Assembly (NCBI GenBank): GCA_016860985.1
Contig: BOKM01000001.1
Location: forward strand, 284,185 to 317,715
Length of the DNA stretch: 33,531 nucleotides
Reading direction: 5' to 3'
From: Patescibacteria group bacterium
GTDB taxonomy: Bacteria; Patescibacteriota; Dojkabacteria; GCA-002793355
Shown here: piece by piece, positions 9,876 to 23,396 of the stretch
Layout of the letters: each line of letters opens with the position of its first letter
Position numbering within the stretch: position 1 is the first letter of the stretch
Program-made: the position numbers and the translations under genes
Notes under the pieces: generated by a model
What the model was told of the DNA's origin: nothing
The model's database searches: none
What the model saw: the letters and a program-made list of their open reading frames with translations, nothing else

Positions 9876-11992
9876 AAAATTCCTGCTTTTCTAAGCGAAC
9901 CTCTGCCTTTTTTCAAAAAGTCTTCATATTCTTCTAGTGATTGCCTTCTAGAATGGTGTACGTCCGTGTATTTCGAATTGCTGGTTCCGCCCTCTTTTGG
10001 CATATACACTTTTTCGAGTTCAAGTGCCGTTGATTTACTCTGATTCGAGCTATTGATATTCTGTTTCAGTACATCACCAAACAGCTCGTGCATAAGCGAA
10101 TAACCGATACACGGGACGACAAGTGGTCTATTTTTATATTTTCTTTTTATAGCACCAAAAAGAGCTCGTGAAAGCTCTGCTCTGTCCATTCCTTCGAAGT
10201 TATCGTGCATTTCAGAGACAATGGGCACACCTCTCTGCAGAAGTGGATTCGCGCCAACTTGGGTTCGTATATCTTCTTGTATCCAGACAATATCGTATCC
10301 AAAGAGACCTAATGTCGGAACAACCCCCGCGTTTTCGTATAAGCGCCTAATCTTGTCACTAAATTCGAGCGCCCATTCGGTATCTCCAATAACGCGAGTG
10401 AGCGATTCATAATCCATTGTTTTGATAAATTCTTCGAATGCTGCCTTTTCTTCAGGAGTCAATTCAACAGTTCTCGATTGCTCTATATGAGCGTTCCCAA
10501 CCAATTCCTCAAGCCGACCGTTACGGTTTGGAATTACTCTATCTTGTGCCCAAAGAATACCCAGTTCTGGATGGAACCAAAATCGATTTTCCGTGTCTCC
10601 TAGTTTCAGTAAAGGCATTACAGCCCACTTTCCGTCCTTTGGCGGGGTGAATTCTAGCGGATTTACATTTCTGTCGATGATAATTCCTTGTTTTGTTGAA
10701 GTACCCGAACGGTGAGCAAATGTTCCGAATTGAGTATAGTCTAAGCCCAAGAATACGCCATCATTAATGACCTCCTCGTATGGGCTTCCATCTGGTCTAT
10801 TCACTACATATCTCAACAAAGGATAGGGCAATCCTGCGAATTTTGCTTCGAGAGCGGGGGTAACTTTACTTTCAAACTTCTGAATATAGGGGAGTGTCAT
10901 TCCAAGAAAATCGAGCCCATATGATTTCACTGCTTTAAGTACAGCGCCAAATTGTTCTGGAGTCACATTGATTGGGTGCCCCTCATCACCGAGTGATTGC
11001 ACCAGAACGCCAACAGACGTCAAAAGTTCTACCAGATTCCCTACAACAACTGAGTTTTTAGGAAGTCGTGCAGCTCTAAAGGCTTCATGGACTTCGTCTT
11101 GTATCTCTTGCTCGTGGCTACTGAGTATTTTTTGCTTTGCTCGTCGGTCATCTTTAACCAGGAATTCAGTACCTTCTTGGACGTCTGACGCTATGTCAAA
11201 AACTGACATTCCCAAAGTTTGCCCTAGTCTTGCCACATTTGACTTCATGGTATCAGCAGGTGAGACTTCATCCCATAAAGCAAGCTGCAACCCTCGCAAC
11301 GAGAAGTATTTCATGATATCTGCACCGCCTTTTTCGAACGTGTTTCGAATTCTTCCAATCGTCGAAATACCTGGAGTTACAATAGTCATCGCGCCATCAC
11401 GGCAAGCACACAAGAATGGACGTATTTCTTCATCTCCAATGTTTTTGTATAACTGAGTGAGAAAAAGATTAACAGACATATCATCAACAACAGCTCCTGG
11501 TGGCATTGATCTTCCTACAACAGCGCCTTCTTCACTCTCTTCAAATTCTTCTGGAATATTTTGAGGAAACCACAAGGGGGCTGCTGCTTCTGTTTGCAGT
11601 CCAACTGCCACTTTCCTGTTCTTTCGTTCGTGGTATATTTCTTTTACATTGCTTGGATATACACAGAAAATTGGCCCCATTCTTGTTTCTTCTTCTGTAA
11701 TAAGAGTGGTTACTTGCGCACCTAACCCAGGTTCCCTCCGTAGCATTACCTCTTCAAAATGCCCTCTTTCTGGGTTACCTCGTTTATACATATATCGAGC
11801 ATATACTGGCCCGCCTTTTTCATTCGCAATAGCTTGAAACGTTTCGACTTCAGGTAGAAATGCCTCTAAGACCTTGCGTTCAGAGTCCAACAATTTTTCT
11901 TTAAGATTTGTATGTCGTGTTACCGTCGTAGAACACTCGGCAAGTTTTTTTACCTCAATAGCTTTTTCAACAACTGCGATATCTCGTTGCAT
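9872..11992 (-). CDS. Large unknown soluble protein (706 aa)
   Basis: A 706-aa protein that I do not recognise. It has no signal peptide or membrane helix. The composition is that of an ordinary globular, mixed alpha/beta protein: charged helical N-terminus (1-60), a region with several aromatic/Gly loops (60-220), a helical stretch around 265-330 (including a DDRRAKQKILSSHEQEIQDE segment that could be a coiled coil), and a beta-rich half containing WFHPELGILWAQDR. The C-terminal 70 residues are Ser/Lys/Arg-rich and look disordered. No nucleotide-binding or metal motif stands out. It has its own -10 element and lies 50 bp downstream of the 159-aa unknown gene, so the two may also be co-transcribed. 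Confidence 0.85.
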   Translation of the reverse strand: MQRDIAVVEKAIEVKKLAECSTTVTRHTNLKEKLLDSERKVLEAFLPEVETFQAIANEKGGPVYARYMYKRGNPERGHFEEVMLRREPGLGAQVTTLITEEETRMGPIFCVYPSNVKEIYHERKNRKVAVGLQTEAAAPLWFPQNIPEEFEESEEGAVVGRSMPPGAVVDDMSVNLFLTQLYKNIGDEEIRPFLCACRDGAMTIVTPGISTIGRIRNTFEKGGADIMKYFSLRGLQLALWDEVSPADTMKSNVARLGQTLGMSVFDIASDVQEGTEFLVKDDRRAKQKILSSHEQEIQDEVHEAFRAARLPKNSVVVGNLVELLTSVGVLVQSLGDEGHPINVTPEQFGAVLKAVKSYGLDFLGMTLPYIQKFESKVTPALEAKFAGLPYPLLRYVVNRPDGSPYEEVINDGVFLGLDYTQFGTFAHRSGTSTKQGIIIDRNVNPLEFTPPKDGKWAVMPLLKLGDTENRFWFHPELGILWAQDRVIPNRNGRLEELVGNAHIEQSRTVELTPEEKAAFEEFIKTMDYESLTRVIGDTEWALEFSDKIRRLYENAGVVPTLGLFGYDIVWIQEDIRTQVGANPLLQRGVPIVSEMHDNFEGMDRAELSRALFGAIKRKYKNRPLVVPCIGYSLMHELFGDVLKQNINSSNQSKSTALELEKVYMPKEGGTSNSKYTDVHHSRRQSLEEYEDFLKKGRGSLRKAGIF

Positions 11993-11998
11993 ATATGT

Positions 11999-12004
11999 AT
12001 TATA
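11999..12004 (-). promoter_or_regulatory. -10 element for the 706-aa gene
   Basis: A perfect TATAAT on the minus strand ends 6 bases before the ATG at 11992. No convincing -35 is present. Its position predicts a leaderless transcript. Confidence 0.55.
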
Positions 12005-12042
12005 CCCTCATGTTACTTCTATTTCCTGACATAAATGTGACA

Positions 12043-12522
12043 TTACGCGGTCATTTTTAGTCGCAACGGTTTGTATGGCGCATGCTCGGCTTCTGTTCGC
12101 AACTCTCGCTTTTCGTCTTGCAAATGAATGCCAATATCTGCCAAAAGATCCAACCTTGCATGTATTTCTTCTTCCGGGAGTCGATAATATGGATACGGAT
12201 CGTCATCTCTGTATGCCCACTCTTTAATTTCGTACCCAAGCAACGAATTTTTTAACGTATCGAGCGGATATATTCGATGTTTCCATTCATCAATATGCTG
12301 GTGAATATGCTCCAGATATTCAGGGTATCGAGCAACAATATCCAAGAAATCATCTTCATCTCCGAATGTGCGTAAAAGCAACATCGCATCGAGCAAGTAA
12401 CGAATCGAACCATCTTTGCCTGAAAGCACACGACTGAATTCTTTTTCGAAATTTTCAATTTGTTCGGCGACTTCTCCTTCTATCATGATGGAATTGCCGC
12501 GGAGGTCCTTTAGTAATCTCAT
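12043..12522 (-). CDS. Unknown protein (159 aa)
   Basis: A soluble, acidic, largely helical protein of unknown function. The frame is open from a TTG at 12537, but ATG 12522 (MRLLKDLRGNSIMIEG) is the better start because the preceding residues fall in an A/T-rich leader. The segment LRGNSIMIEGEVAEQIENF resembles a short beta hairpin followed by a helix. Asp/Glu-rich stretches (FGDEDDFLDIV, YRDDDPYPYYRLPEEE) occur in the middle and C-terminal parts. Its upstream region contains an inverted repeat at 12539-12593. It precedes the 706-aa gene in the same direction, so a shared function is possible. Confidence 0.7.
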   Translation of the reverse strand: MRLLKDLRGNSIMIEGEVAEQIENFEKEFSRVLSGKDGSIRYLLDAMLLLRTFGDEDDFLDIVARYPEYLEHIHQHIDEWKHRIYPLDTLKNSLLGYEIKEWAYRDDDPYPYYRLPEEEIHARLDLLADIGIHLQDEKRELRTEAEHAPYKPLRLKMTA

Positions 12523-12538
12523 ATTTTTATGCTGCAAA

Positions 12539-12593
12539 CAGGAGGCAAGAAAGGTATAAAACGCTTGAACGAAACTCTCTTCCCTGCCTCCTG
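12539..12593. repeat. Inverted repeat with a 37-nt gap
   Basis: CAGGAGGCA (12539-12547) and TGCCTCCTG (12585-12593) are exact inverted copies. The pairing continues imperfectly inward (GAAAG-type bases against CTTTC-type). It lies just upstream of ATG 12522 on the minus strand. In that transcript the hairpin would hold an AGGAGG, the only strong Shine-Dalgarno-like sequence nearby, in its 5' arm. Function unknown; it may be a regulatory leader structure. Confidence 0.5.
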
Positions 12594-12594
12594 A

Positions 12595-12614
12595 ACGGCT
12601 CAGCCGTTTTTCTT
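12595..12614 (+). terminator. Short terminator-like hairpin on the plus strand
   Basis: A 5-bp stem ACGGC/GCCGT with a TCA loop (12595-12607) is followed by a plus-strand T-run (TTTTTCTT). No plus-strand gene ends here, so what it would terminate is unclear; the annotated genes on both sides are on the minus strand. Confidence 0.35.
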
Positions 12615-12631
12615 ACCCAGCATCATCCATT

Positions 12632-12802
12632 TTACTTCACATAGATTGTGATCGTTCCTTTCGGCATTTCATCTCCGTGACGGAGGACCTTATATCCAAC
12701 ACTTTTCAGCGTAACTGTGCTTCCAACTTGCGGAAGTTTGTTTCGCGGATATTTGCCGGACCCGACCTTTGTTCCGTCTTCGGTTTTGAATTTAACGTTC
12801 AT
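12632..12802 (-). CDS. Small unknown protein (56 aa) with a strong ribosome binding site
   Basis: A 56-aa reading frame from ATG 12802 (MNVKFKTEDG) to TAA 12632. A GGAGG lies 6 bases before the ATG, which is the only textbook Shine-Dalgarno at proper spacing that I found in this window. The protein is basic (several Lys/Arg), beta-rich and Gly-containing, ending TITIYVK. It has no membrane segment or Cys. It could be a small OB/SH3-like barrel or a nucleic-acid-binding protein, but this is only a guess from composition. A minus-strand TACACT (12822-12827) lies 19 bases before the start codon as a candidate -10. It diverges from the aminotransferase gene across a structured intergenic region. 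Confidence 0.65.
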   Translation of the reverse strand: MNVKFKTEDGTKVGSGKYPRNKLPQVGSTVTLKSVGYKVLRHGDEMPKGTITIYVK

Positions 12803-12827
12803 CTTGAGCCTCCATGTAAGTAGTGTA

Positions 12828-12998
12828 CCTAGACGTGGATTGGCATTGCTGCCCTAGGATTTGGGATGCCCACGCAAACATACGTCCAATACATGAACAT
12901 ATCTTTGCGTGGTTCCCTGGTGCTGCTGAGTGCCTGCGAGAATTGCTTCATCAACAGGCGAATGTCAAAGTACTTCATCCCGCGAGGGAGAAATACTT
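12828..12998 (+). ncRNA. Candidate structured RNA region (several stem-loops)
   Basis: Four possible stems follow one another: CCTAG (12828-12832) with CTAGG (12854-12858); CCACGCAAA (12870-12878) with TTTGCGTGG (12904-12912); GCCTG (12932-12936) with CAGGC (12955-12959); and a hairpin at 12968-12998 of about 13 bp with one bulge and one mismatch, closed by a GCGA tetraloop. I looked for hallmarks of tRNA, SRP RNA, tmRNA and RNase P RNA and found none. The strand is not certain, since perfect stems read on both. The region is otherwise non-coding between divergent genes. Confidence 0.3.
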
Positions 12999-13039
12999 CG
13001 TATTATAGGTCATTTTGCAATAATTGTGAATACCTCATA

Positions 13040-13068
13040 TTGCAGTCGTATTACCGAATTGATACAAT
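13040..13068 (+). promoter_or_regulatory. Promoter of the plus-strand aminotransferase gene
   Basis: TTGCAG (13040-13045), a 17-bp spacer and TACAAT (13063-13068). The -10 ends 4 bases before ATG 13073. This position decides the start codon: the longer frame from 12866 would place the promoter inside the coding region. Confidence 0.65.
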
Positions 13069-13072
13069 ACCT

Positions 13073-14230
13073 ATGCAATATTCCTCCGAATTGGTGGGCA
13101 GAATCGAAGCTTCTCCAACTAAAAAACTAAAACCAATAAAACAAGCACTGCTTGCACAACAAGTACAACTGATTGACTTTGCAGATGGAGAACCAGAACT
13201 TGGCATTTCGAACGAAACGCGAGAGGCAATTGCAAAAAGCCTAAAGGAGGGGCATTACAAGTACAGCGCAGCACAAGGATCACAACCGCTGCTGCGCACG
13301 ATTGCAGAAATTCGTCACGTTCCTATCGACAATATCGTTATTGGCTATGGCGTTAAGCACCTTTTTTACTCGTTACTGCAAACCTACTGCAACCCTGGGG
13401 ACGCAATACTGATGTTACAACCCAACTGGATGATTTATGCGCAACAAGCAAAAGCTCTTGGAATTAGCGTAACTAACTGCCCCGTACGCAACGGTTCATT
13501 TGATATCGACTTTGATTTATTAGAAAAGCTTCTGGCCGAAAACCCAAATATTCGACTTATCGTAACCAGTACCCCCAACAATCCAACAGGTAAGTGCTTA
13601 TCGCAAAAAGAAAAGCAACAACTGCTCGAAATCGCAAGCAAAAAAGAGCTGCTTCTTGTACTGGACGAAGTATTCAGAGACTTGTTACCAAGTGGTGGAA
13701 AACTAGAGAACACACCCTTTTCAGAAAACCTTATTTCAATAACATCTTCAAGTAAGAGCTACGGAATGACGGGTTTTCGAATTGGATACTTGCTCGGACC
13801 TGAGCCAGTGGTGAGCAATATCACGCAATACCTCTACCTTACAGTTACAAATGTGCCCGAATTCATTCAAGATGCTTATAAAAGTGAACTGCAAAACAGC
13901 GCTCGATTAGTGGAAAATGCAGCCCATATACGGCATAAACAAGAAGTCATGGAAAAGGCCATCGACGCATGTACCTTTATCTCCAATACCCCACACCAGG
14001 GCGGTATATGCATGTTTCCCAAGATTTCATATCCAAATGGTATAGATGAATGGCAACTTGCAGAAAAGCTAATGTCAGAAGCACATGTCGCGATTGTTCC
14101 TGGAATTGCCTTTTCGTACCCTGGGTATATACGACTTAATTACGCACACCTTTCTGACTCCGACATTACTGAAGGCATTCAACGTATCGAAACGTATTTG
14201 GTTAAATTGAATCAAAATATACGTGAATAA
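13073..14230 (+). CDS. PLP-dependent class I/II aminotransferase
   Basis: A 385-aa fold-type I aminotransferase of the aspartate aminotransferase type, transferring an amino group between an amino acid and a 2-oxo acid. Visible motifs: TSTPNNPTG (about 165-173) with the cofactor-binding Asn, LDEVF (D198; the usual Tyr is Phe), the PLP Lys K228 in SSSKSYGMTGFRIGY, and PGYIRLNY near the C-terminus with the carboxylate-binding Arg. The frame is open upstream to 12866, but a promoter immediately before ATG 13073 and the lack of any family similarity in the extension support the shorter protein. It is a distant paralogue of the aminotransferase at 17159-18313. The substrate is unknown. The next gene overlaps it by 8 bp. 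Confidence 0.93.
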   Translation: MQYSSELVGRIEASPTKKLKPIKQALLAQQVQLIDFADGEPELGISNETREAIAKSLKEGHYKYSAAQGSQPLLRTIAEIRHVPIDNIVIGYGVKHLFYSLLQTYCNPGDAILMLQPNWMIYAQQAKALGISVTNCPVRNGSFDIDFDLLEKLLAENPNIRLIVTSTPNNPTGKCLSQKEKQQLLEIASKKELLLVLDEVFRDLLPSGGKLENTPFSENLISITSSSKSYGMTGFRIGYLLGPEPVVSNITQYLYLTVTNVPEFIQDAYKSELQNSARLVENAAHIRHKQEVMEKAIDACTFISNTPHQGGICMFPKISYPNGIDEWQLAEKLMSEAHVAIVPGIAFSYPGYIRLNYAHLSDSDITEGIQRIETYLVKLNQNIRE

Positions 14231-14840
14231 GTTTTATGTATTGCTCGCAGGTGACAACGCTGGAAAGTCTACTGTACTCAACTACTTTTTAGAGAGACAA
14301 GATTGGCAAGTCGCATCCTACGATGCAGTTAATGTTCCAGAAGAATACCGTATTATTCGCGATATCGATGACTCGATGGAAACACACACGCTCAAATACT
14401 TTCCCCAATTTTCGACTGAATTTAAGTCCAGCCTTTACGCGCCGTACATCTACTATCTTCGAGATCAAGTTCAAGAAAAGCTAAAAACTGGCAATGTACT
14501 CTGTAACTCCTACTACTACAAAATACTCGCCAAAGATTTTCTTCAAGGGGGAGATAACCCTTCTTTTCACAACGAATGGAGAAAACTCCCCAAACCCGAC
14601 AGGATTCTTTTTCTTGATACTCCACCAGAAGTTGCTGCAAGCAGAATTGAAGATATCTTCTCTCTTTTTTCAAACGAATACGAAGGAGAAGTCCCTTCTG
14701 TCACGGGTTTTGTAAGTTTTCAGCACAAACTGAAAGAACGAATGCTCTACGAAACAAAAGACATTCCAACAGTCTTTCTGCCTGGAGATAAATCTGTTGC
14801 CGAGATTCTTACAGCGCTCGAACAAGCACTACAGGAGTAA
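14223..14840 (+). CDS. Thymidylate-kinase-like P-loop kinase
   Basis: A 205-aa protein starting at a GTG that overlaps the aminotransferase stop, so probably translationally coupled. Walker A is GDNAGKST (10-17). The strand ILFLDTPPEVAASRI matches the D-x-P-P-E-x-x-x-x-R pattern of thymidylate and related nucleoside monophosphate kinases. Where TMK has the D-R-Y/F substrate-binding motif, this protein has NSYYYKILAK, so the substrate is probably not dTMP. It may phosphorylate another small molecule in the pathway encoded nearby. It converges on the M20 peptidase gene with 28 bp between them. Confidence 0.8.
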   Translation: MNKFYVLLAGDNAGKSTVLNYFLERQDWQVASYDAVNVPEEYRIIRDIDDSMETHTLKYFPQFSTEFKSSLYAPYIYYLRDQVQEKLKTGNVLCNSYYYKILAKDFLQGGDNPSFHNEWRKLPKPDRILFLDTPPEVAASRIEDIFSLFSNEYEGEVPSVTGFVSFQHKLKERMLYETKDIPTVFLPGDKSVAEILTALEQALQE

Positions 14841-14868
14841 TACTTAAGTTTTTGACGTTACTTCTCGC

Positions 14869-16185
14869 TTACTCTCCAAGGAACGCTTCGCTGAAACGTA
14901 AACCTTTTTCGATAAGGTCAACTCTGTAGTTTTCTCCAACAGCGTGCATTCGACAATCTTCGTTTGCTAAAGGAAGCAAAACTTGTGGAATTTTAAAGAT
15001 GTCGTCAATCAAAGTAACGATCGGCAATCCACCTCCACAATACTTAAAGATTGGCTCTGTGCCGTATACTTCGGCAAGGATTCCTCGTGCCTTTTCGACG
15101 TACTCGCTGTTTGTGTTAAGCTTAATTCCATCGTATGGATCACTATATTCGACAGTCACATCGGCATACGAAGGTGCAAGTTGCTTCATGTATTCCGCAA
15201 ATTTTTTCGCAAGTTCCTCTGGATTCTGATTCTTTACAAGTCGGAAGTTGATTTTTGCTACTGCCTTAGAGGGTACACTGTTTCGGTAACCTTCCCCGAC
15301 ATACCCTGACTGCATGCCTGTAATGACAACCGCTGGGCGCAAACCGACTTGCGTATAAAAGTCATATCCATCAAGACTAGTCAGCTCTTTTGCCCCACTC
15401 AAATTCTTGTATTCCTCGAGTGTAAATGGAATTCGCTTGTTATTTTCGATATCTTCTGGCGCAATTTCAAGCACATCATCATAAAAACCTGGAATTGTTA
15501 CTTTTCCGTTTACAAAGAGTTTACCGAGCATTTCGGATAATACTAAGGATGCCATTGGAACTGCCCCACCAAACAAGCCAGAGTGTAAATCTGTTGTTGA
15601 CGTAACTACCGTTGTAGTTGAGTTAAACCCACCTCTGAAACCAGTTTCTAAGGTTGGGATACCTGCAGTAATTTCTCCATCAGAAATGAGTGCAAAATCC
15701 GACTTTAGGGTTTCGGCATAGTCGTGCATAAATTGCGTAATATGTGGTGAGCCCGTTTCTTCGTTCCCTTCGATCATAAACTTTACGTTGTACTTGAGCT
15801 TTCCTGCCTCAATAAGGTCGAAAACGGTTGCAGTATGAATCATAAACTGCCCTTTGTTATCAACCGCTCCACGTCCGTAGATTCGCCCTTCTTTTTCGGT
15901 AAGCCCGTACGGATCAGTCTCCCAGCCATCAGAAATATCTGCAGGTTGGATATCATAGTGACCATAAATAAGTACAGTTTTTGCTTCAGGAGAAACGACA
16001 TACGAGGCAATAATAATTGGATTGTCATACCCACGCGCGACTGTAACCGTAAAGCCATGTGTTTTATAAAGATTTTCTAGAAAAGAAACTATTTTTTCAA
16101 CTTCTGGCTGGTAAACCGCATCGGTTGAAATACTCTTATAAGCAACGGCTTCTTTTAATAGTCCGAGATATTTTTGATAGTTCAT
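14869..16185 (-). CDS. M20 family metallopeptidase (dipeptidase-like)
   Basis: A 438-aa di-zinc hydrolase of the M20 family (carnosinase/PepV/ArgE type). All expected ligands are visible: H76 and D78 in YGHYDIQPAD, D109 in GRGAVDNKGQ, catalytic/bridging E142-E143 in EGNEETGSP, D169 in ISDGEI, and H414 near the C-terminus. The dimerisation (lid) domain lies around 185-300. Such enzymes cut dipeptides or N-acyl amino acids. As the last gene of the minus-strand operon it may process a precursor or recycle a peptide; it could also be a plain housekeeping dipeptidase. A 29-bp gap separates it from the gene before it. No signal peptide, so cytoplasmic. Confidence 0.95.
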   Translation of the reverse strand: MNYQKYLGLLKEAVAYKSISTDAVYQPEVEKIVSFLENLYKTHGFTVTVARGYDNPIIIASYVVSPEAKTVLIYGHYDIQPADISDGWETDPYGLTEKEGRIYGRGAVDNKGQFMIHTATVFDLIEAGKLKYNVKFMIEGNEETGSPHITQFMHDYAETLKSDFALISDGEITAGIPTLETGFRGGFNSTTTVVTSTTDLHSGLFGGAVPMASLVLSEMLGKLFVNGKVTIPGFYDDVLEIAPEDIENNKRIPFTLEEYKNLSGAKELTSLDGYDFYTQVGLRPAVVITGMQSGYVGEGYRNSVPSKAVAKINFRLVKNQNPEELAKKFAEYMKQLAPSYADVTVEYSDPYDGIKLNTNSEYVEKARGILAEVYGTEPIFKYCGGGLPIVTLIDDIFKIPQVLLPLANEDCRMHAVGENYRVDLIEKGLRFSEAFLGE

Positions 16186-16214
16186 AAGTAGTGAATTAGA
16201 TAAAGTTAATTATT

Positions 16215-17150
16215 TTATATTAATTGTTCGAATATTTCACTTTTCCGTTGTTCTCTTAATAATGCTCCTCCTAGCTCTGCAAATTTTTTATTATTTGAGG
16301 GGATACCTTTTAGGTTAAACCCTTCTGCACGATGTAACAGCAGTAAGCCAATATATCGCATATAACGTGACTTATCCGATTCATCGAAAGCCAAGTCAAC
16401 AAAGCATTTTTCTGTAAAGTGGCCAATACGTTGATAAACTTCACTATTCTTTGAGGCTATTGCATACAAAAGCAAGTGTGATGCGAAATATGCAGGATCA
16501 TATACTCTATCTCCCCAAAATGCTTCTTCAAAATCGATAAGTTTAAAGGTATCTTCTGATGGAGAAACAAAGATGTTTTTAGGAGACAACCCACTGCAAT
16601 TTACAACTTTTCCACCTTTTTCGGCATCTTGAAAGAGTCTATCGATAGCATCTTTATATTGCGACGGCACAAATAATGAACGGAGCGCTTTTGTGGTTTG
16701 CTGGTTATAAAAGAAAGGTATCTTTTCACTTGCTTCTTTCGATTTTTCTCCTTTTTGCACAAGAAAACTGACAAAAGCTTCCATAAACCTAACAGTCGGG
16801 ACATATCCTGATAATAGTAAATCATCAAAAATGACATGTGATCCACCTACTCGATCTAGTGCCAAAATTCCTTGAGTTGAGTCATAACCATACACTTTTG
16901 GCACATAGCTTTTATCAATACTCTCTAAGAAGGCATACATAGAAGCCTCCGTTTGAACCCTTTTCATAGGATATAGAGGCAAAGAGGGATATGGCTGAAA
17001 CTCCTTGTTAACCTTTACGACTACTTCTTGTGCATGATTATTTTTAAGTAAGCATACGTAAGCACCGTATCCTAGCACCTTTTCGATTTCCATGGCACGA
17101 AAGCCCAACTTTGCTGCGTACGTTTTTGCTTGTTGTGTATACATTTCCAT
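16215..17150 (-). CDS. APH/choline-kinase-fold protein lacking the catalytic Asp
   Basis: A 311-aa protein with the aminoglycoside/choline phosphotransferase fold. The N-lobe has a Gly-rich strand (LGYGAYVCLL) and the ATP-contacting Lys in EVVVKVNKE (about K46). The C-lobe metal-binding segment is intact: LIDFEEAFWGDRVYDPA (D206). The catalytic loop, normally H-G-D-L-x-x-x-N, reads C185-S-G187-L-S-P-K-N192, so the His and the catalytic Asp are replaced while the Asn is kept. I infer a pseudokinase or an enzyme with altered chemistry. It lies 8 bp downstream of the aminotransferase and is co-transcribed with the rest of the operon. Confidence 0.88.
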   Translation of the reverse strand: MEMYTQQAKTYAAKLGFRAMEIEKVLGYGAYVCLLKNNHAQEVVVKVNKEFQPYPSLPLYPMKRVQTEASMYAFLESIDKSYVPKVYGYDSTQGILALDRVGGSHVIFDDLLLSGYVPTVRFMEAFVSFLVQKGEKSKEASEKIPFFYNQQTTKALRSLFVPSQYKDAIDRLFQDAEKGGKVVNCSGLSPKNIFVSPSEDTFKLIDFEEAFWGDRVYDPAYFASHLLLYAIASKNSEVYQRIGHFTEKCFVDLAFDESDKSRYMRYIGLLLLHRAEGFNLKGIPSNNKKFAELGGALLREQRKSEIFEQLI

Positions 17151-17158
17151 CTTGCGTG

Positions 17159-18313
17159 TTATTGAGTTATCAATTTTTTTGTTTCTTCAACCAACAATTT
17201 CATACCTTCTTGAATCTCAGAAAGTGTACTGTTACCGACTGAAATTCGTACATATCCAGGCATACCAAAAGCACTTCCTGGTAACATTGCAATTCCCTTT
17301 GTTTTAAGCATGTGTAAACAGTATTCTGAATCAGAAAGCCGCATAACTGGTAACTTTGGAAAGAGGTAGATTGTCGCCTTCTCTTGAGCAAGCTCAAAAA
17401 GATTAGCCTTTTTTAAGGCAGCATATGCCTCGTTATATCGTTGCTCTAGTTCTGCTTTGTAATCCGATTGAAAAGTCTTGTGACGTACCACATCAACCCA
17501 GATTTTCTGAGCGTAAACGGGCACATTTGAAATTGTCTGTGAGTTAACGGAGATACACTGTTTTACAAACGTTTTGTTTGCGACAATATATCCCAAGCGA
17601 AAACCAGACATGCCGTGCGACTTGCTTGGTGAACCAACAATGTAAAGAGATTCGACTTGCGCATCACTCACGAGTGAACGCATAGAAACGAATTCATTCC
17701 CAGAAAATACTAAATCACCATACACTTCGTCTGCAATGACGAGCATTCCGTATTCTTTTGCTATCTTTAGTATTTGCTGTAATTCTTCTCTAGAATATGT
17801 ATACCCGCTTGGGTTATTAGGATTATTGATAAGAATTGCACGTGGTTTTTGTAAGGTTTCAATATATTCACGTAATTTCTCAGGGTTAATCTGCGGTGAT
17901 TCACTTTCAAACACACGGCAGTTTGCACCCACAACTTCAATTTGTGATTTGTAAGTCGACCAATACGGAGCAACTACAACAACATCGTCACCCTCGTTAA
18001 AGAGCATGAGTGCTAATGTGAAAAGTGCCTGCTTCGCACCTGCAGAAATAACGATTTCTTCGGTTGTCACTGAATACTTAACTGCGAGGTACGACAGAAT
18101 ACCTGAATCGCCTTGAGAAGAACCGTATTTGTACCACCCAGCTTTTTCAAAGTAGCGTGGCATCTGCGAAACAATATCACTGGGGAGCGCAATGTTTACA
18201 TCACCGTGATCGAACTTATAGACTTTCTTGCCCTGAGCTTCCAGCTCCTGAATCAAAGGTTTAAATTGTTTAGTTTCGGAGGGCCTTATTTTTTCCATCC
18301 TTTGCGCAAACAT
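17159..18313 (-). CDS. PLP-dependent class I/II aminotransferase
   Basis: A 384-aa fold-type I aminotransferase of the aspartate aminotransferase type. Motifs: AGAKQALF, LINNPNNPSG (161-170), ADEVYGD (D195, Y198), the PLP Lys K231 in SPSKSHGMSGFRLGY, and PGYVRISVG near the C-terminus. An alternative start is Met6 (MEKIRPSETKQF). In this operon it could aminate the product of the PEP-mutase-like enzyme, a 2-oxo acid. It shares the general family and a similar size with the plus-strand aminotransferase at 13073, but differs in the DEVY/DEVF position and in residues around the active site. It lies 11 bp after the upstream gene. Confidence 0.94.
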   Translation of the reverse strand: MFAQRMEKIRPSETKQFKPLIQELEAQGKKVYKFDHGDVNIALPSDIVSQMPRYFEKAGWYKYGSSQGDSGILSYLAVKYSVTTEEIVISAGAKQALFTLALMLFNEGDDVVVVAPYWSTYKSQIEVVGANCRVFESESPQINPEKLREYIETLQKPRAILINNPNNPSGYTYSREELQQILKIAKEYGMLVIADEVYGDLVFSGNEFVSMRSLVSDAQVESLYIVGSPSKSHGMSGFRLGYIVANKTFVKQCISVNSQTISNVPVYAQKIWVDVVRHKTFQSDYKAELEQRYNEAYAALKKANLFELAQEKATIYLFPKLPVMRLSDSEYCLHMLKTKGIAMLPGSAFGMPGYVRISVGNSTLSEIQEGMKLLVEETKKLITQ

Positions 18314-18324
18314 GCCACACTCAA

Positions 18325-19026
18325 TTAATTAATATAACCATAAAGTAAAAACTCTCTTCCGTACGTTTCTTCTACGTCGACTCTGCAATACGTTTCGTGG
18401 TGTATCTCTTCTGCAGTTTCTTCTGAGGGAACCGCCCGCAAAACGAGTGATACCGAGTCGTCTAAACCGATTTTTCCCGTAATATATCCCTCAGATACCA
18501 CATGAGAGGCATGGACCAATACTCGGGAAAAAGGCAGCCCGTAATGAAAGACAGTCACTTTCTTTGTGGTACCCGACGTACCTGCAAGGACATACTGTTC
18601 AGACTCAACAGGCAATTGCAGATTTGGATTCCAAACCGTTAAGAGTGAGCGAATCCCTTGCATTACCTTGCCATCACCTAGTGTCGTCATTGACAGATGT
18701 TTTCCCCCAAACTGAAGCTTTTTATCGTAGATCTTTCTCACTTTCTCTGGGTTTCCATTCAAAAAATACATCCGAGTAAAGGCAGAAAACCACTTACGAA
18801 GTGTCTCGCTTGCTTGAGAAGAAATCATCTCCCTGAGCGTATGGAGATATTCACTCCAAGAGAAAGTTTCGATTACAGTGATTCCGTAGAACATAGGAAT
18901 CGAATCTAGATTTTTGTTAACCCAGATTCCATCTTTTTGTTCGAAGAAGTAGTCAAATCCCTCGTTGTACCCTTTTTTCTTGATTGCTGCATCAAAATGC
19001 GCAATCCGTTCGTTTTGTGAGTTCAT
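18325..19026 (-). CDS. Unknown protein of the biosynthetic operon
   Basis: A 233-aa protein of unknown function. I place the start at ATG 19026 because it forms a 4-bp ATGA overlap with the stop of the methyltransferase gene; the longer frame back to 19119 runs inside that gene. The N-terminal half is helical and aromatic-rich (FDYFFEQKDGIWV, WSEYLHTL). The C-terminal half is beta-rich (EQYVLAGTSGTTKKVTVFHY, VSLVLRAVPSEE). No catalytic motif is recognised and no signal peptide is present. Its tight coupling in the middle of the operon argues that it takes part in the same pathway. Confidence 0.8.
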   Translation of the reverse strand: MNSQNERIAHFDAAIKKKGYNEGFDYFFEQKDGIWVNKNLDSIPMFYGITVIETFSWSEYLHTLREMISSQASETLRKWFSAFTRMYFLNGNPEKVRKIYDKKLQFGGKHLSMTTLGDGKVMQGIRSLLTVWNPNLQLPVESEQYVLAGTSGTTKKVTVFHYGLPFSRVLVHASHVVSEGYITGKIGLDDSVSLVLRAVPSEETAEEIHHETYCRVDVEETYGREFLLYGYIN

Positions 19027-19739
19027 TTTCTTGCAATGATATAACCATATGTAAGCCACGGTGCAGTAAATTTCGATTCTAATACCGTTAAGCCCGCATC
19101 CTTGATGAAGTTCTCCCACATCTGTTTAGTCGCCATATATTCGCCTTGCTTCTTGATAATCTTTTGGCAAAAATCTACCTCTCTCCAAAACTGTGAAATC
19201 CCTACATTTACAAGGCCGTTCAATGCTTTTCGCGCGTAGATACTCATAATTGATAACGGGTGAGCCTGGCTCTCAAACATTGTCTCTCCGAGCACAAACA
19301 AGCCGCCCTTTTTTATACCGTTTGCAATTTTTTTGACCATTTGTCCTTTTTCTTCATGGACTATGTGGTGCAAACTAAACGATGCCATAATCACGTCGTA
19401 AGATTCTGGCTCGATTTCGAGTTCTTCAAAATTTGCTTTAACTGTGGTGAGTTTTTCCGATGGTTTACCCGCATCTTTCCACCTCTTTTCTACCGCCTGT
19501 AACATTTCCTGAGAGACGTCCACTGCTACGATATCTGGTGACGAAAAAACTTCATCAGCAAACATAGCAAGAATCCCCGTTCCTGTGCCTAAGTCCATAA
19601 CTCTCTTCACGTTGTTCTCATGAACGACTGCCGCCGTTCGTGCAAACATCTCCTCTACCATTTTTTGGTATTGTGGTACTTTATTTAAAAAGTACTCTTT
19701 TGCCCATTCGTCAAAGAATTTTTCTTGAACGTAATCCAT
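19023..19739 (-). CDS. SAM-dependent class I methyltransferase
   Basis: A 238-aa Rossmann-fold methyltransferase. Motif I is MDLGTGTGIL (48-57). The acidic residue that binds the SAM ribose is D74 in VAVDVS. Motif IV is DVIMASFSLHHI (115-126). The long N-terminal helix and the C-terminal region with several aromatic residues would form the substrate pocket. The substrate cannot be read from the sequence. It sits 3 bp after the synthetase-like gene and overlaps the next gene by 4 bp, so it is firmly part of the operon. Confidence 0.92.
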   Translation of the reverse strand: MDYVQEKFFDEWAKEYFLNKVPQYQKMVEEMFARTAAVVHENNVKRVMDLGTGTGILAMFADEVFSSPDIVAVDVSQEMLQAVEKRWKDAGKPSEKLTTVKANFEELEIEPESYDVIMASFSLHHIVHEEKGQMVKKIANGIKKGGLFVLGETMFESQAHPLSIMSIYARKALNGLVNVGISQFWREVDFCQKIIKKQGEYMATKQMWENFIKDAGLTVLESKFTAPWLTYGYIIARK

Positions 19740-19742
19740 AAG

Positions 19743-20840
19743 TTATAAAAATAAGTTATATAAAAGCGACTGTTGTTCTGTCACATCAAACATTCGGTTT
19801 TTCATTATCATCTGTGCAACCCACGGTGGAGATACAAACGTACCATCAAATTTTTTATGTGGAAAAGGAATTTCCGCATTTAAGGCTTCGCGTCTCCACC
19901 CCACACGATTTAATACAAAACGTGCTTTTTGAGTGTATTTTTCAAGATCACGATACTCAAAACTTTTCGGAATAAAACCCAGGTAGTAAAACCGGAGTCC
20001 AAGCGAAATTTCATCTTGGGTGTACCCTTTATCTTGAAGGAACGCTAATACTCTTCCAAGTGAATATTTTTCCCATCCGCCATGTCGGCTTGAAAGTGCT
20101 TTACCCTCCAATAAAATCCTGTTAGTCTGAATTTTGTACACTTTATGTCCCAATTTTTCTAAGACACGTTGGAGAATAAAGAAGTCTCCAAGTAGCTCAT
20201 CATCAAACACAAATACAAATACATCACCATTTTTTCGAAGCGCAAGTAACTCACGAAGCATAGTTCCGAGATAGTTATAATCCGAGAGTACCGAAGAGCA
20301 CAAATGCCGTAATTTAATCCCTTCGTCAGTAAGGTCTATATAAACATTTTCTCCCTGCTTCCGTGAATCAAGAACCATCGATATTTCTTTTAGCTTTTCG
20401 ATTACCTCTTCTAGAGAAATGTCGAAAGGTACCGCCTGCGTCAACCCAGGATTATACATACGAAGGAAGCTGTGCTGTTCCACCCATTCAGGAAGAATCG
20501 CCCTGTAATACGAGTTACCAGACAAGCTTTCTTCTCGTTCTTTACGCATCTCGGTAATTTTTCCCTGCGATAATGCATAGCCCTCATTGGTCATCTGCAC
20601 GTAGGCACCTCCGACTTCTTCTGCATTAGTGACAGAGAGTTGTTTTGACTCAATGTATTGCTCGAGCTTTAGTACTTGCGGCGTGACATCCATCCGTAGC
20701 CTATTGTATGGATAAACAACATCTGCTCCCTTTGCTTTTAAGCCGCGGTAAAGGCAGTCCACATACAACAAGTGCCGAACGTGCGTTGGCGTTAACGGCT
20801 TAGTTGGAGCGATGTGAATTGGATAAATAACGTATCTCAT
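19743..20840 (-). CDS. Stand-alone class I aminoacyl-tRNA synthetase-like protein
   Basis: A 365-aa protein with features of the HUP-fold class I synthetases. The N-terminus, IHIAPTKPLTPTHVRHLLYV, has an H-x-x-H (H20, H23) where HIGH is expected, and the following helix and G-A-D-V strand fit Cys/Glu-type enzymes. Residues 247-254 are KALSSRHG, like the KMSKS/KLSKRHG loop, followed by a helical bundle (LRFYYLGFIPKSFEYRDLEK) as in CysRS. No anticodon-binding domain follows, and the middle (60-200) does not resemble a normal synthetase. I infer an adenylate-forming ligase or carrier-loading enzyme of the pathway, comparable to MshC in mycothiol synthesis. It overlaps the PEP-mutase-like gene by 4 bp. 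Family assignment is from motif inspection only. Confidence 0.7.
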   Translation of the reverse strand: MRYVIYPIHIAPTKPLTPTHVRHLLYVDCLYRGLKAKGADVVYPYNRLRMDVTPQVLKLEQYIESKQLSVTNAEEVGGAYVQMTNEGYALSQGKITEMRKEREESLSGNSYYRAILPEWVEQHSFLRMYNPGLTQAVPFDISLEEVIEKLKEISMVLDSRKQGENVYIDLTDEGIKLRHLCSSVLSDYNYLGTMLRELLALRKNGDVFVFVFDDELLGDFFILQRVLEKLGHKVYKIQTNRILLEGKALSSRHGGWEKYSLGRVLAFLQDKGYTQDEISLGLRFYYLGFIPKSFEYRDLEKYTQKARFVLNRVGWRREALNAEIPFPHKKFDGTFVSPPWVAQMIMKNRMFDVTEQQSLLYNLFL

Positions 20841-21655
20841 GCCGACATTGCCTCGAGCTCTTTAACCTTATCTTCGCCTGTGATTGCAAGAATTTCGGAA
20901 ATCGGTGCAATTTCTTTTTCAATTGGAGCACTTGTTCCTGCTTCGAGAATCCTTGGTAACGTTGTTTCCAGCGCTCTTTTAATTGTTCTGACGGTATGAT
21001 TGGCATAGATGACCAGATCGTAGCCATTTGACTCAAGCTCTGCCCTTGTAACTTGCGGGTATTTTGAAGGTACGGAAACCAACTTCGTTTTTCCCTTCCA
21101 GAGTTTTGAAAATTCAAAAATTTCGTCTGGAGTGGACTGTTTGGAGTGTGGCATTACATAATCTGCACCCGCATCAGCATAAATAGTTGCCCTGCGAAGT
21201 GCCTCTTCTACCCCCATTCCCTGAATCAAGGCCTCCGTTCTTGCTACCACAAATTCATCTGGACCATTAAAAATTCTCTTTGCCATAACAATCTTTCGTG
21301 CAAACGCTTGTGCCTCTTCGAGCAAACGAGTTCCTTCGTAAAAACTGTTTTGTTTTGGAAAGATATTGTCTTCGATACAGACTGCTTTTACACCAGCTTT
21401 TTTCAGTTCTTGAAAGTAATAAAATACATTGACCTCGTTACCGTATCCAGAATCACAGTCCATAAGAACCGGAACCGAGCTGTTTTCAACCATTTCTTTC
21501 GCCACGCGTAGAACCGAATCGAACGATACGATAGACGCGTCTGGTAAACAATATGCTGTTGAAATTTCTAGAGAAGATCCCCATACCAAATCGAACCCCA
21601 AGCTCGATACGATCTTTGCGGTAAAGGCATTGTGCGCTGCTATTGCTGTTTTCAT
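20837..21655 (-). CDS. PEP mutase / isocitrate lyase superfamily enzyme
   Basis: A 272-aa TIM-barrel enzyme close to phosphoenolpyruvate mutase and phosphonopyruvate hydrolase. Matching segments: WGSSLEIS (25-32; the usual SG is SS), the metal-binding DCDSGYGN (D66, D68), the gating-loop region EDNIFPKQNSF (95-105), VARTEAL, and IYANHTVR near the C-terminus. The PEP-mutase signature is EDK-x5-NS; here the Lys is Asn97, while Asn103-Ser104 are kept. PEP mutase makes phosphonopyruvate, the entry to nearly all phosphonates; the hydrolase splits it to pyruvate and phosphate. The K-to-N change leaves the exact reaction open. First structural gene of the operon; the next gene overlaps it by 4 bp. 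Confidence 0.9.
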   Translation of the reverse strand: MKTAIAAHNAFTAKIVSSLGFDLVWGSSLEISTAYCLPDASIVSFDSVLRVAKEMVENSSVPVLMDCDSGYGNEVNVFYYFQELKKAGVKAVCIEDNIFPKQNSFYEGTRLLEEAQAFARKIVMAKRIFNGPDEFVVARTEALIQGMGVEEALRRATIYADAGADYVMPHSKQSTPDEIFEFSKLWKGKTKLVSVPSKYPQVTRAELESNGYDLVIYANHTVRTIKRALETTLPRILEAGTSAPIEKEIAPISEILAITGEDKVKELEAMSA

Positions 21656-21660
21656 TTTTT

Positions 21661-21666
21661 GTTGTA
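21661..21666 (-). promoter_or_regulatory. Possible -10 element of the biosynthetic operon
   Basis: TACAAC on the minus strand ends 5 bases before ATG 21655, the same arrangement as at other gene starts here. It follows the terminator at 21676-21699, and no good -35 is present because the terminator occupies that place. If this is not a promoter, operon expression would depend on read-through from the small gene upstream. Confidence 0.4.
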
Positions 21667-21675
21667 TTAAATAAA

Positions 21676-21699
21676 AAAACCTCCCTTGCGGGAGGTTTT
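21676..21699 (-). terminator. Strong bidirectional rho-independent terminator
   Basis: A perfect 10-bp stem AAAACCTCCC/GGGAGGTTTT with a 4-nt loop (TTGC on the plus strand). The minus strand continues with three more T's. It lies between the 52-aa gene and the PEP-mutase-like gene, 20 bp before the latter's ATG, so it can act as an end for the small transcript or as an attenuator for the operon. Confidence 0.85.
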
Positions 21700-21723
21700 A
21701 ACTTTCTTTTAATTAGAGTTAAT

Positions 21724-21882
21724 CTACCCCCCGGCTATTGCAGTAAAAAGGACAAAGAGTGCAATAGAAAGATAACGCTTTGCCCAATGCATACAGGAGG
21801 TAAGTGAAGCAACTTGTAACGCCAACAAAGCAGACGACTGCTCTAGAACAGAGGGCTGAGTTGTTGTTGCAACTGCTAACAT
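21724..21882 (-). CDS. 52-aa protein with C-terminal membrane helix, own promoter and terminator
   Basis: A 52-aa reading frame from ATG 21882 (MLAVATTTQP) to TAG 21724. The first 30 residues are small, polar and Ser/Thr/Ala-rich; WAKR (33-36) precedes a hydrophobic segment YLSIALFVLFTAIAGG that ends the protein, which fits a tail-anchored or single-span small membrane protein. It contains one Cys (C30). A near-consensus promoter lies directly upstream and a strong terminator follows 25 bp after the stop, so it forms a complete transcription unit. I do not recognise a family. It could be a stand-alone small protein or a leader peptide for the operon that follows. Confidence 0.6.
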   Translation of the reverse strand: MLAVATTTQPSVLEQSSALLALQVASLTSCMHWAKRYLSIALFVLFTAIAGG

Positions 21883-21891
21883 GATAAACGA

Positions 21892-21920
21892 ATTGTATAG
21901 AGAAAAAAACGAAGTGTCAA
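21892..21920 (-). promoter_or_regulatory. Near-consensus promoter of the 52-aa gene
   Basis: On the minus strand: TTGACA (21915-21920), a 17-bp spacer, and TACAAT (21892-21897). The -10 ends 9 bases before ATG 21882, so the mRNA would begin about 3 nt before the start codon. It is the closest match to a sigma-70 promoter in the window. Confidence 0.8.
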
Positions 21921-21942
21921 GCTCGACTAATACGCCCTACCC

Positions 21943-22680
21943 TTAATTCCAAGAAAAATCCCATCGAACGGGTATTTTATTCATAACCTTTTCTTTCCGT
22001 GCATACGAAGAAAACACATCTCGCCTTTCGAGTTTCGACAAAACAAAGGCGTACATAAAGAGTGCCTCCTTTGAAACATGCTGTAGCATTGAGGGGCTAA
22101 CCAAGCGGTTAGCATCTCCTTGGTATATGCGCGAGAGTGCTGCCATAACCGCGTTTAGTAAATAATCTTGCTGGGCTTCATTACACACATATTTCCTTGC
22201 TGACTTCCGTACGTCGTCTAGAATTCCATCGTTGGCACACTCGTTTAGCACCTCATACTCTGCTGTTCGTTCAATAACATGCTGTGCAGGTTTTCTAGAT
22301 GCGAACGTTTTTACTAAGTCGCGAGAGGCAACATTCACTTTGTAAATCAACGGAATTGAGTAGTCTTTAATAAATTCCTTCCAACTATTTGGGCTGAATT
22401 GTTGTAATTGGTTTTTGGTAAACTCTAGATAATAGCCAAAACGTTCTAGCTCATGCTCGAATATACCACTTCGTCTAGATTCATGAGGAAAAAGATATGA
22501 AAATCCTATAATTGCTCTTAGTTTTCTATCTGCAATGCTGAGTGTTTTCGCACTGAGATCGGCAGCTGTATCACGTTCTCGCTTAGCAGAAAAAAGCGAC
22601 CCTACCTCTTGATAAATTTCTGCGGCACCAAAGCCATCTAGATGTTTTTCTGCTTTAGCTGGAGCGACATTAAGTCCCAT
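21943..22680 (-). CDS. Unknown helical protein (245 aa)
   Basis: A soluble, helix-rich protein of unknown function. The frame is open to 22746, but I choose ATG 22680 (MGLNVAPAKAEKHL) because a TATAAT ends 4 bases before it and the extension would overlap that promoter. Notable are an Arg/Lys/Glu-rich helix around SAKRERDTAADLSAK and a C-terminal part rich in aromatic and basic residues (RWDFSWN end). No nucleotide-binding motif or membrane helix is visible. It lies downstream of the XRE regulator in the same direction and upstream of the 52-aa gene. Confidence 0.75.
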   Translation of the reverse strand: MGLNVAPAKAEKHLDGFGAAEIYQEVGSLFSAKRERDTAADLSAKTLSIADRKLRAIIGFSYLFPHESRRSGIFEHELERFGYYLEFTKNQLQQFSPNSWKEFIKDYSIPLIYKVNVASRDLVKTFASRKPAQHVIERTAEYEVLNECANDGILDDVRKSARKYVCNEAQQDYLLNAVMAALSRIYQGDANRLVSPSMLQHVSKEALFMYAFVLSKLERRDVFSSYARKEKVMNKIPVRWDFSWN

Positions 22681-22684
22681 AGTT

Positions 22685-22713
22685 ATTATACACTTCAATT
22701 TACTCCTCTTCAA
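22685..22713 (-). promoter_or_regulatory. Promoter of the 245-aa gene
   Basis: On the minus strand: TTGAAG (22708-22713), a 17-bp spacer and a perfect TATAAT (22685-22690), which ends 4 bases before ATG 22680. This predicts a leaderless transcript and supports the shorter start. Confidence 0.7.
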
Positions 22714-22772
22714 GTTTGTGGTGAATACGGTAAAACCATATGCCACAAGCTATGTACCGTCCCAGCACTCTC

Positions 22773-23396
22773 TTAAAACTTTACAACCCACTCCACTACT
22801 TTTGCGAGAACGTTTGCTTTTAACTCTGGCATATACTGCGTAACTTGAACCAGATTATTCACAACAGTTAGTACAAGTGAATGCTCATCTAGTTCGTCTG
22901 TAACCAACGTACAAACAAGTATGCCCCGAGGCAATAACACCCCTGCAGCGATTCTAATTTTAGAGTCAGGTCCAAGTTTGATTGCAAATTTTTCAACCGC
23001 GGTTCCGTCATCGTATAGATACATCCCTTGCTCTAGTTGAGATAACATTCGAACGAGTTCAGCTTTTGAGGCAGGTATTGTCGAAATAATTGGTAAGAAG
23101 ATTGATTGCAACCGCTCTGAACTTGAATCGCGAAAGTTTGAAAATATTGGAGCTGCACCAAAAAACGTTCCCATTGGAACTTCGAGTGCAAAGGCAAGTT
23201 CTTGCAATTTGTTCAGCGCAGAAGACTTACCTCGCTCATATCTGCTAATCATCTCCCACGTGACGCCTACTTTTCGAGCAAGCTCTACTTGAGATAAATT
23301 CTTTTTTTGTCTTTGATCTCGAATTATTTCTCCAATCTCTTTGTCAGTCATGCCCCACTTTACGAAACCATCTTTCTTCTCGCTATGAATTGGCAT
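22773..23396 (-). CDS. XRE-family transcriptional regulator
   Basis: A 207-aa DNA-binding protein. Residues about 20-75 are a Cro/CI-type helix-turn-helix: IGEIIRDQRQKKNLSQVELA, then WEMISRYERGKS, with the usual hydrophobic spacing. The C-terminal part (about 85-207) is a separate domain. Its segment FAIKLGPDSKIRIAAGVLLP, a later VNNLVQVTQY, and ANVLAKVVEW recall the beta-rich S24/LexA-like fold of CI-type repressors, but no convincing Ser-Lys catalytic pair can be assigned. Target unknown; the downstream gene at 22680 and the cluster behind it are candidates. An alternative start is Met16 (MTDKEIGEII). Confidence 0.9.
   Translation of the reverse strand: MPIHSEKKDGFVKWGMTDKEIGEIIRDQRQKKNLSQVELARKVGVTWEMISRYERGKSSALNKLQELAFALEVPMGTFFGAAPIFSNFRDSSSERLQSIFLPIISTIPASKAELVRMLSQLEQGMYLYDDGTAVEKFAIKLGPDSKIRIAAGVLLPRGILVCTLVTDELDEHSLVLTVVNNLVQVTQYMPELKANVLAKVVEWVVKF

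Follow-up and report, generated by a model that had tools for sequence, protein, structure and literature searches.

What is a protein that resembles a class I aminoacyl-tRNA synthetase (aaRS) doing inside an operon of apparently biosynthetic genes, and from which synthetase does it descend? The window analysed here, a stretch of 33,531 nucleotides from a Patescibacteria group bacterium, carries such a gene as a real and intact open reading frame of 365 residues on the minus strand. The gene has a start/stop overlap of 4 nt with the upstream PEP-mutase-like gene, and the methyltransferase gene begins a few bases 3' of it; Pfam matches to both neighbours confirmed the setting described in a first-pass annotation. 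On the minus strand, the gene order is PEP-mutase-like, aaRS-like, methyltransferase, DUF6182, aminotransferase, APH-like kinase and M20 peptidase. Beyond the peptidase, a second aminotransferase gene and a thymidylate-kinase-like gene lie on the plus strand. The features are as follows:

21676..21920, minus strand: attenuator-like leader, just before the PEP-mutase-like gene
20837..21655, minus strand: enzyme of the PEP mutase / phosphonopyruvate hydrolase family (PF13714, E 9e-47; TIGR02320, 250 bits, below the cut-off of 319.6)
19743..20840, minus strand: aaRS-like enzyme, ArgRS-related class I catalytic domain, 365 aa (key residues K14, H20 as the last His of the HIGH position, Y190, and S250-S251-R252-x-G254-G255-W256)
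19023..19739, minus strand: SAM-dependent methyltransferase (PF13649, E 1.8e-17)
18325..19026, minus strand: DUF6182 protein, 233 aa (PF19680, E 1.6e-14; start codon and methyltransferase stop codon share the overlap ATGA)
17159..18313, minus strand: class I/II PLP aminotransferase (PF00155, E 8e-57)
16215..17150, minus strand: APH-like phosphotransferase, a weak match (PF01636, 22.5 bits, just below the cut-off of 23.2)
14869..16185, minus strand: M20 family peptidase/dipeptidase-like protein (PF01546, E 6e-24)
14223..14840, plus strand: thymidylate-kinase-like P-loop kinase (PF02223, E 4e-5, below the cut-off)
12866..14230, plus strand: second class I/II aminotransferase, whose gene overlaps that of the kinase (PF00155, E 7e-50)

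The aaRS-like protein had no match in Pfam, NCBIfam, PADLOC or PHROGs, and a phmmer search against the PDB returned noise only. Its structure was predicted with AlphaFold2 from the alignment of its family, less the row from the plasmid collection, giving a model (pLDDT 86.4, pTM 0.84) that is poor only in the last ~55 residues. The predicted structure has the class I Rossmann/HUP fold, as the first-pass annotation had claimed: Foldseek and VIA-align matched the model to ArgRS, CysRS, MetRS and LeuRS. Foldseek placed ArgRS first (2zue, E 2.4e-9) and CysRS next (2.2e-7), followed by MetRS, PyrN and MshC. With VIA-align, the model reached Z 21.0 against ArgRS (322 residues aligned, 4.1 A), 19.1 against CysRS (279 residues), 17.9 against MshC (280 residues), 16.0 against MetRS and 15.1 against PyrN. 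The absence of a HUP fold, which would have counted against the first-pass annotation, was thus not observed; that the motifs lie around a common active site was judged indirectly, from the superposition on ArgRS. Cyclodipeptide synthases were not among the fold matches listed, which does not show that a likeness is absent. About 110 residues follow the motif at the KMSKS position, of which 311-365 have low pLDDT; the structural alignment extends to ArgRS residue ~525. The model corresponds to a class I catalytic fold, apparently without the full architecture of a tRNA synthetase, within a biosynthetic operon.

Descent from CysRS, or from the CysRS-derived mycothiol ligase MshC, had been proposed at first. 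CysRS and MshC do have the same fold as our protein, as their Z-scores show. At the sequence level, CysRS stood for this idea in the profile comparison; MshC was compared by structure. In profile-profile comparison (hhalign), the family scored 47.0 against an alignment of 30 ArgRS sequences, over 240 columns and with both signature motifs in register, and 17.6 against CysRS, which is the level of shuffled alignments. As controls, 30 column-shuffled ArgRS alignments scored at most 18.8, a reversed ArgRS alignment 19.2, four unrelated cassette families at most 24.1, and four class I synthetases of the same genome at most 23.0, the last being a weaker comparison made with single sequences. The top PDB sequence match of the family profile was the P. 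horikoshii ArgRS; the match is weak (E 0.34), yet both motifs align: the two share the lysine before HIGH (VNPTKPLHMGH versus TPTKPLTPTH), and SxRxGxW is in register. Moreover, no Cys occurs among the invariant or near-invariant columns of the 26-sequence family alignment, and no zinc site of the CysRS/MshC type is therefore apparent. By three methods (Foldseek, VIA-align and profile comparison), the closest relative of the aaRS-like protein is ArgRS, not CysRS or MshC, and a CysRS/MshC-derived ligase now seems very improbable.

The signature motifs of ArgRS are kept only in part. The ArgRS motif N-x-x-K-x-x-H-x-G-H aligns with A11-P-T-K14-P-L-T17-P-T19-H20, which puts the HIGH position at T17-P18-T19-H20, within PTKPLTPTH; the sequence there is TPTH and keeps the last His only. 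K14 and H20 are kept in all 26 family members, the first His of HIGH is replaced by Thr (Leu in five members), and the Gly by Thr in 25 of the 26 and by Ser in the other. The H-x-x-H at 20-23 had earlier been taken for the HIGH motif; H20 is indeed invariant, but position 23 is Gly in 25 members and H23 is unique to the window protein. At the KMSKS position, ArgRS K-M-S-S-R-x-G aligns with A-L-S250-S251-R252-H-G254, and the family reads xxSS[R/K]xGGW, with the ArgRS-type SSRxG part kept and the lysines not. The segment KALSSRHG (247-254) was thus correctly placed at the KMSKS position, but the two lysines of that motif are not conserved across the family, and ArgRS K376 aligns with A248. A lysine ahead of HIGH is a feature of ArgRSs without the KMSKS lysine. 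Judging from these alignments, the invariant K14 and H20 and the conserved S250-S251-R252-x-G254 would retain part of the ATP-handling apparatus; ATP use may nevertheless be lost or altered, because the HIGH Gly, its first His and the KMSKS lysines are replaced.

By alignment, the putative amino acid pocket differs as well. We take the arginine ligands of yeast ArgRS to be E148, N153, Y347, D351 and Q375, which by motif correspond to E123, N128, Y312, D316 and Q340 of the ArgRS in L052. In the alignment, E123, N128, D316 and Q340 become Y6, A11, M194 and L216, and Y312 is kept as Y190; across the family, the five putative sites hold Ala, Thr, Tyr, Ile/Val and Leu/Ile. With four of the five putative ligands replaced and the Tyr alone kept, arginine is an unlikely substrate.

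The aaRS-like gene had been called an orphan, a description that no longer applies. Among plasmids, tblastn detected a single homologue, carried by a Streptomyces megaplasmid (30% identity, E 4e-29), and a two-sequence alignment used as query found 26 loci in actinobacterial genomes; the plasmid and the genome scan together make 27 actinobacterial loci, some of which are closely related. In the 26-sequence alignment, the window protein shares 25-29% identity with the other 25 members and has all 42 invariant columns, a conservation far beyond chance. Invariant positions include P12, T13, K14, P15, H20, D28, Q55, Y80, W119, D158 and D169, and further R178, N189, Y190, R196, D213, D219, R241, G254, G255, W256 and R283. 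The window protein departs at sites otherwise held in 25 of the 26 members (W26, W60, W107, H109, P110, R114, G164, R172 and P176), which suggests that its substrate is different.

In the Actinobacteria, the gene belongs to a cassette of five: aaRS-like, DUF6182, a GH3 acyl-adenylase, a fusion of HMG-CoA reductase with an APH-type kinase, and a thymidylate-kinase-like (TMPK-like) protein (L008:13932-20755 and L011-L034). All five genes are present in 25 of the 27 loci; counted singly, DUF6182 and GH3 each occur in 26, and the HMG-CoA reductase with its APH-like domain and the thymidylate-kinase-like gene each in 25. Cassette genes are usually close together on the same strand, and the wider neighbours vary. 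Actinoplanes sp. TFC3 has two aaRS-like copies (L010 and L025), of which the L010 copy adjoins GH3, without DUF6182, HMG-CoA reductase or the thymidylate-kinase-like gene alongside. DUF6182 is thus a near-obligate partner of the aaRS-like gene. Its predicted structure is poor (pLDDT 60), and a fold search with it gave no match. A literature search, which misses most subscription journals, found nothing relevant to the cassette, to DUF6182 or to this ArgRS-related family. The window shares with this cassette the aaRS-like family and DUF6182, as well as APH-type and TMPK-type kinases at the level of fold family only: the window APH-like kinase has no specific kinship to the cassette APH domain, and the kinase at 14223 has motif-level similarity only to the cassette TMPK-like protein. 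Neither GH3 nor HMG-CoA reductase was among the Pfam matches of those window proteins that were scanned; instead, the window has the PEP-mutase-like enzyme, the methyltransferase, two aminotransferases and the M20 peptidase. Conversely, a PEP-mutase motif was not seen in the DNA examined around each of the 27 actinobacterial loci.

How this gene set is placed in the genome was addressed by comparison with relatives. It lies on an island of ~13 kb (9876..22770) that is missing from relatives. In one of them (G003), the homologues of the flanking genes 8448-9875 and 22773-23396 are direct neighbours, and the segment 9876-22770 was therefore either inserted here or lost in G003. In a relative of the same genus (G002), two genes come after the HTH gene, one for a 274-aa protein and then, at the contig end, one for an aminotransferase; by eye, the 274-aa protein may match the window gene 21943-22746, in which case the right edge of the island could be nearer 21900. 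The aminotransferase-like gene of G002 (L105:11001-12233), two genes beyond the island-bordering HTH gene and at the contig end, may represent another biosynthetic insert at this site, which could itself be a hotspot. The GC content of the island (0.414) is like that of its flanks (0.430 and 0.416); transfer, if any, would therefore have been old or from a donor of similar composition. Protein and profile searches found no homologue of the aaRS-like protein in 56 relatives or 378 genomes of the phylum, and none was found in viral contigs. DUF6182 was not found in the relatives and was absent from the other 143 genomes searched. The thymidylate-kinase-like gene (14223..14840) is the only such gene seen in the genome, and none was found in seven family relatives. 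At the left end of the island, the minus strand encodes a 706-aa protein (9872-11992) with no Pfam, PHROGs or PADLOC match.

The genome comparison gave one further result: no ArgRS was found in the assembly of this genome (G000), yet all seven family relatives have one. The aaRS-like protein could then be a minimal or replacement arginyl-tRNA synthetase. This is extremely improbable: the assembly is in 5 contigs and ~91% complete, so that a gap is a simple and probably the correct explanation for the missing gene; the putative arginine ligands are mostly replaced, as described above; most tRNA-binding parts appear to be missing from the protein; and the other members of its family sit in biosynthetic cassettes.

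The leader and the PEP-mutase-like gene lie upstream of the aaRS-like gene. The leader (21676-21920; no Rfam match, folding z-score -3.2) has a strong promoter-like match, TTGACA-17-TACAAT (21920-21892), a 52-codon ORF (21882-21724) that ends in a G-run, and a terminator-like hairpin (21699-21676) just before the PEP-mutase-like start codon. The PEP-mutase-like enzyme matches the phosphonopyruvate hydrolase 2dua and the PEP mutases 5unc and 1m1b about equally. Its loop, EDNIFPKQNS, differs from EDKxxPKxNS by one substitution, Lys to Asn at the third position; at the site of hydrolase Thr118, the loop has Asn, as PEP mutase does. C-P bond formation by this enzyme is plausible.

We propose that the aaRS-like protein is a tRNA-independent, ATP-using ligase of a specialised-metabolite pathway, descended from ArgRS and no longer part of translation, a reading to which we give close to even chances. 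As a stand-alone catalytic domain, it would activate an acid with ATP to an acyl-adenylate and then transfer the acyl group to a small molecule, by analogy to PyrN and MshC; DUF6182 would perhaps act in the transfer or in the step that follows activation. Arginine is probably not the acid. A negatively charged substrate, phosphorylated or phosphonate, would be a good fit to the invariant K14, R178, R196, R241 and R283; in this genome, the PEP-mutase-like enzyme and the aminotransferases could provide one, and the pathway here is probably phosphonate-linked. That HIGH and KMSKS are both degenerate, with the HIGH Gly and first His replaced and the KMSKS lysines not conserved, is the main reason why our confidence in a ligase stays near one half; the presence of a separate adenylate-forming enzyme, GH3, in the actinobacterial cassette also speaks against it. 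A more specific picture, which we regard as doubtful, is that of a new lineage of ArgRS-descended natural-product ligases, forming with DUF6182 a two-part module that is joined to differing precursor enzymes and that here links another acid or an amine to a phosphonate amino acid, itself a product of the PEP-mutase-like enzyme and an aminotransferase, yielding a phosphonate metabolite.

The same degenerate motifs can be accounted for in other ways. If GH3, found in 26 of the 27 actinobacterial loci, carries out the adenylation, the aaRS-like protein could be a transferase acting on a ready-made activated substrate (an acyl-adenylate or an acyl-phosphate from a cassette partner) or on another nucleotide, as the lack of a HIGH Gly and of conserved KMSKS lysines would allow. 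We consider this unlikely, since the window protein keeps every family-invariant residue, yet no GH3 accompanies it among the window proteins scanned. Degeneration of both motifs would also be expected of an enzyme that has lost adenylation and moves an aminoacyl group from a charged tRNA to a small molecule, in the manner of cyclodipeptide synthases or of the IleRS-like SbzA (PMC6331615). SbzA, however, keeps a multi-domain architecture, whereas with ~110 residues after the KMSKS position most of the anticodon-binding part would be missing from our protein, and K14, H20 and SSRxGG are still conserved; such a transfer is quite unlikely. Last, the near-obligate pairing with DUF6182 (26 of 27 loci) and the degenerate motifs would fit a non-catalytic regulatory or assembly subunit of DUF6182, comparable to HisZ, a known non-adenylating aaRS paralogue (PMC9437257). 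Across phyla, at 25-29% identity, K14, H20, Y190 and SSRxGGW vary little or not at all; retained active-site chemistry is the better fit to this, and a HisZ-like role is improbable.

The proposed ligase can be placed among known relatives. Its likeness to the ArgRS catalytic domain (PF00750; PDB 2zue, 6ao8) extends over 322 residues of fold and to the lysine before HIGH, the last His of HIGH, the Tyr after the central strand and SSRxG at the KMSKS position. It differs in the replaced first His and Gly of HIGH, the lost KMSKS lysines and four of the five inferred Arg-binding residues, and in being a much shorter protein without a Pfam match that is not encoded by a housekeeping gene. MshC, the mycothiol cysteine ligase, resembles our protein in being a short enzyme of class I aaRS fold and is a precedent for small-molecule ligation without tRNA (PMC9736012), but it comes from another aaRS lineage, CysRS, and keeps its KMSKS motif (PMC9736012). 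The aaRS-like family has no conserved Cys. The MetRS-like domain of PyrN (pyrazomycin; PDB 9l8v) likewise has the class I aaRS fold; it is encoded in a natural-product cluster and forms an ester with ATP and without tRNA (PMC8664883); by analogy, it would be the closest mechanistic model. PyrN is MetRS-derived and has a cupin partner, whereas our protein is ArgRS-derived and has DUF6182; neither the island proteins covered by the Pfam scan nor the core cassette included a zinc cupin partner. Another MetRS-plus-cupin system, that of Aravind et al. (PMC2922099), belongs to a different family. SbzA (altemicidin/SB-203207) is another aaRS-like enzyme recruited to a biosynthetic cluster, in this case a multi-domain IleRS-like enzyme that uses Ile-tRNA (PMC6331615).

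The class I aaRS-derived biosynthetic enzymes compared here thus come from CysRS (MshC), MetRS (PyrN) and IleRS (SbzA), and no ArgRS-derived biosynthetic enzyme is named in a review of aaRS duplications from 2022 (PMC9437257). Recruitment of the class I aaRS fold to biosynthesis is already known; an ArgRS-derived branch with DUF6182 as near-obligate partner appears to be new. The family, its conserved partner and the five-gene cassette found in many actinobacteria offer a testable route to a new enzyme and probably to a new class of compounds, and the location on an island of a ~1 Mb genome suggests that chemistry of this kind can spread to bacteria that are seldom mined for natural products.
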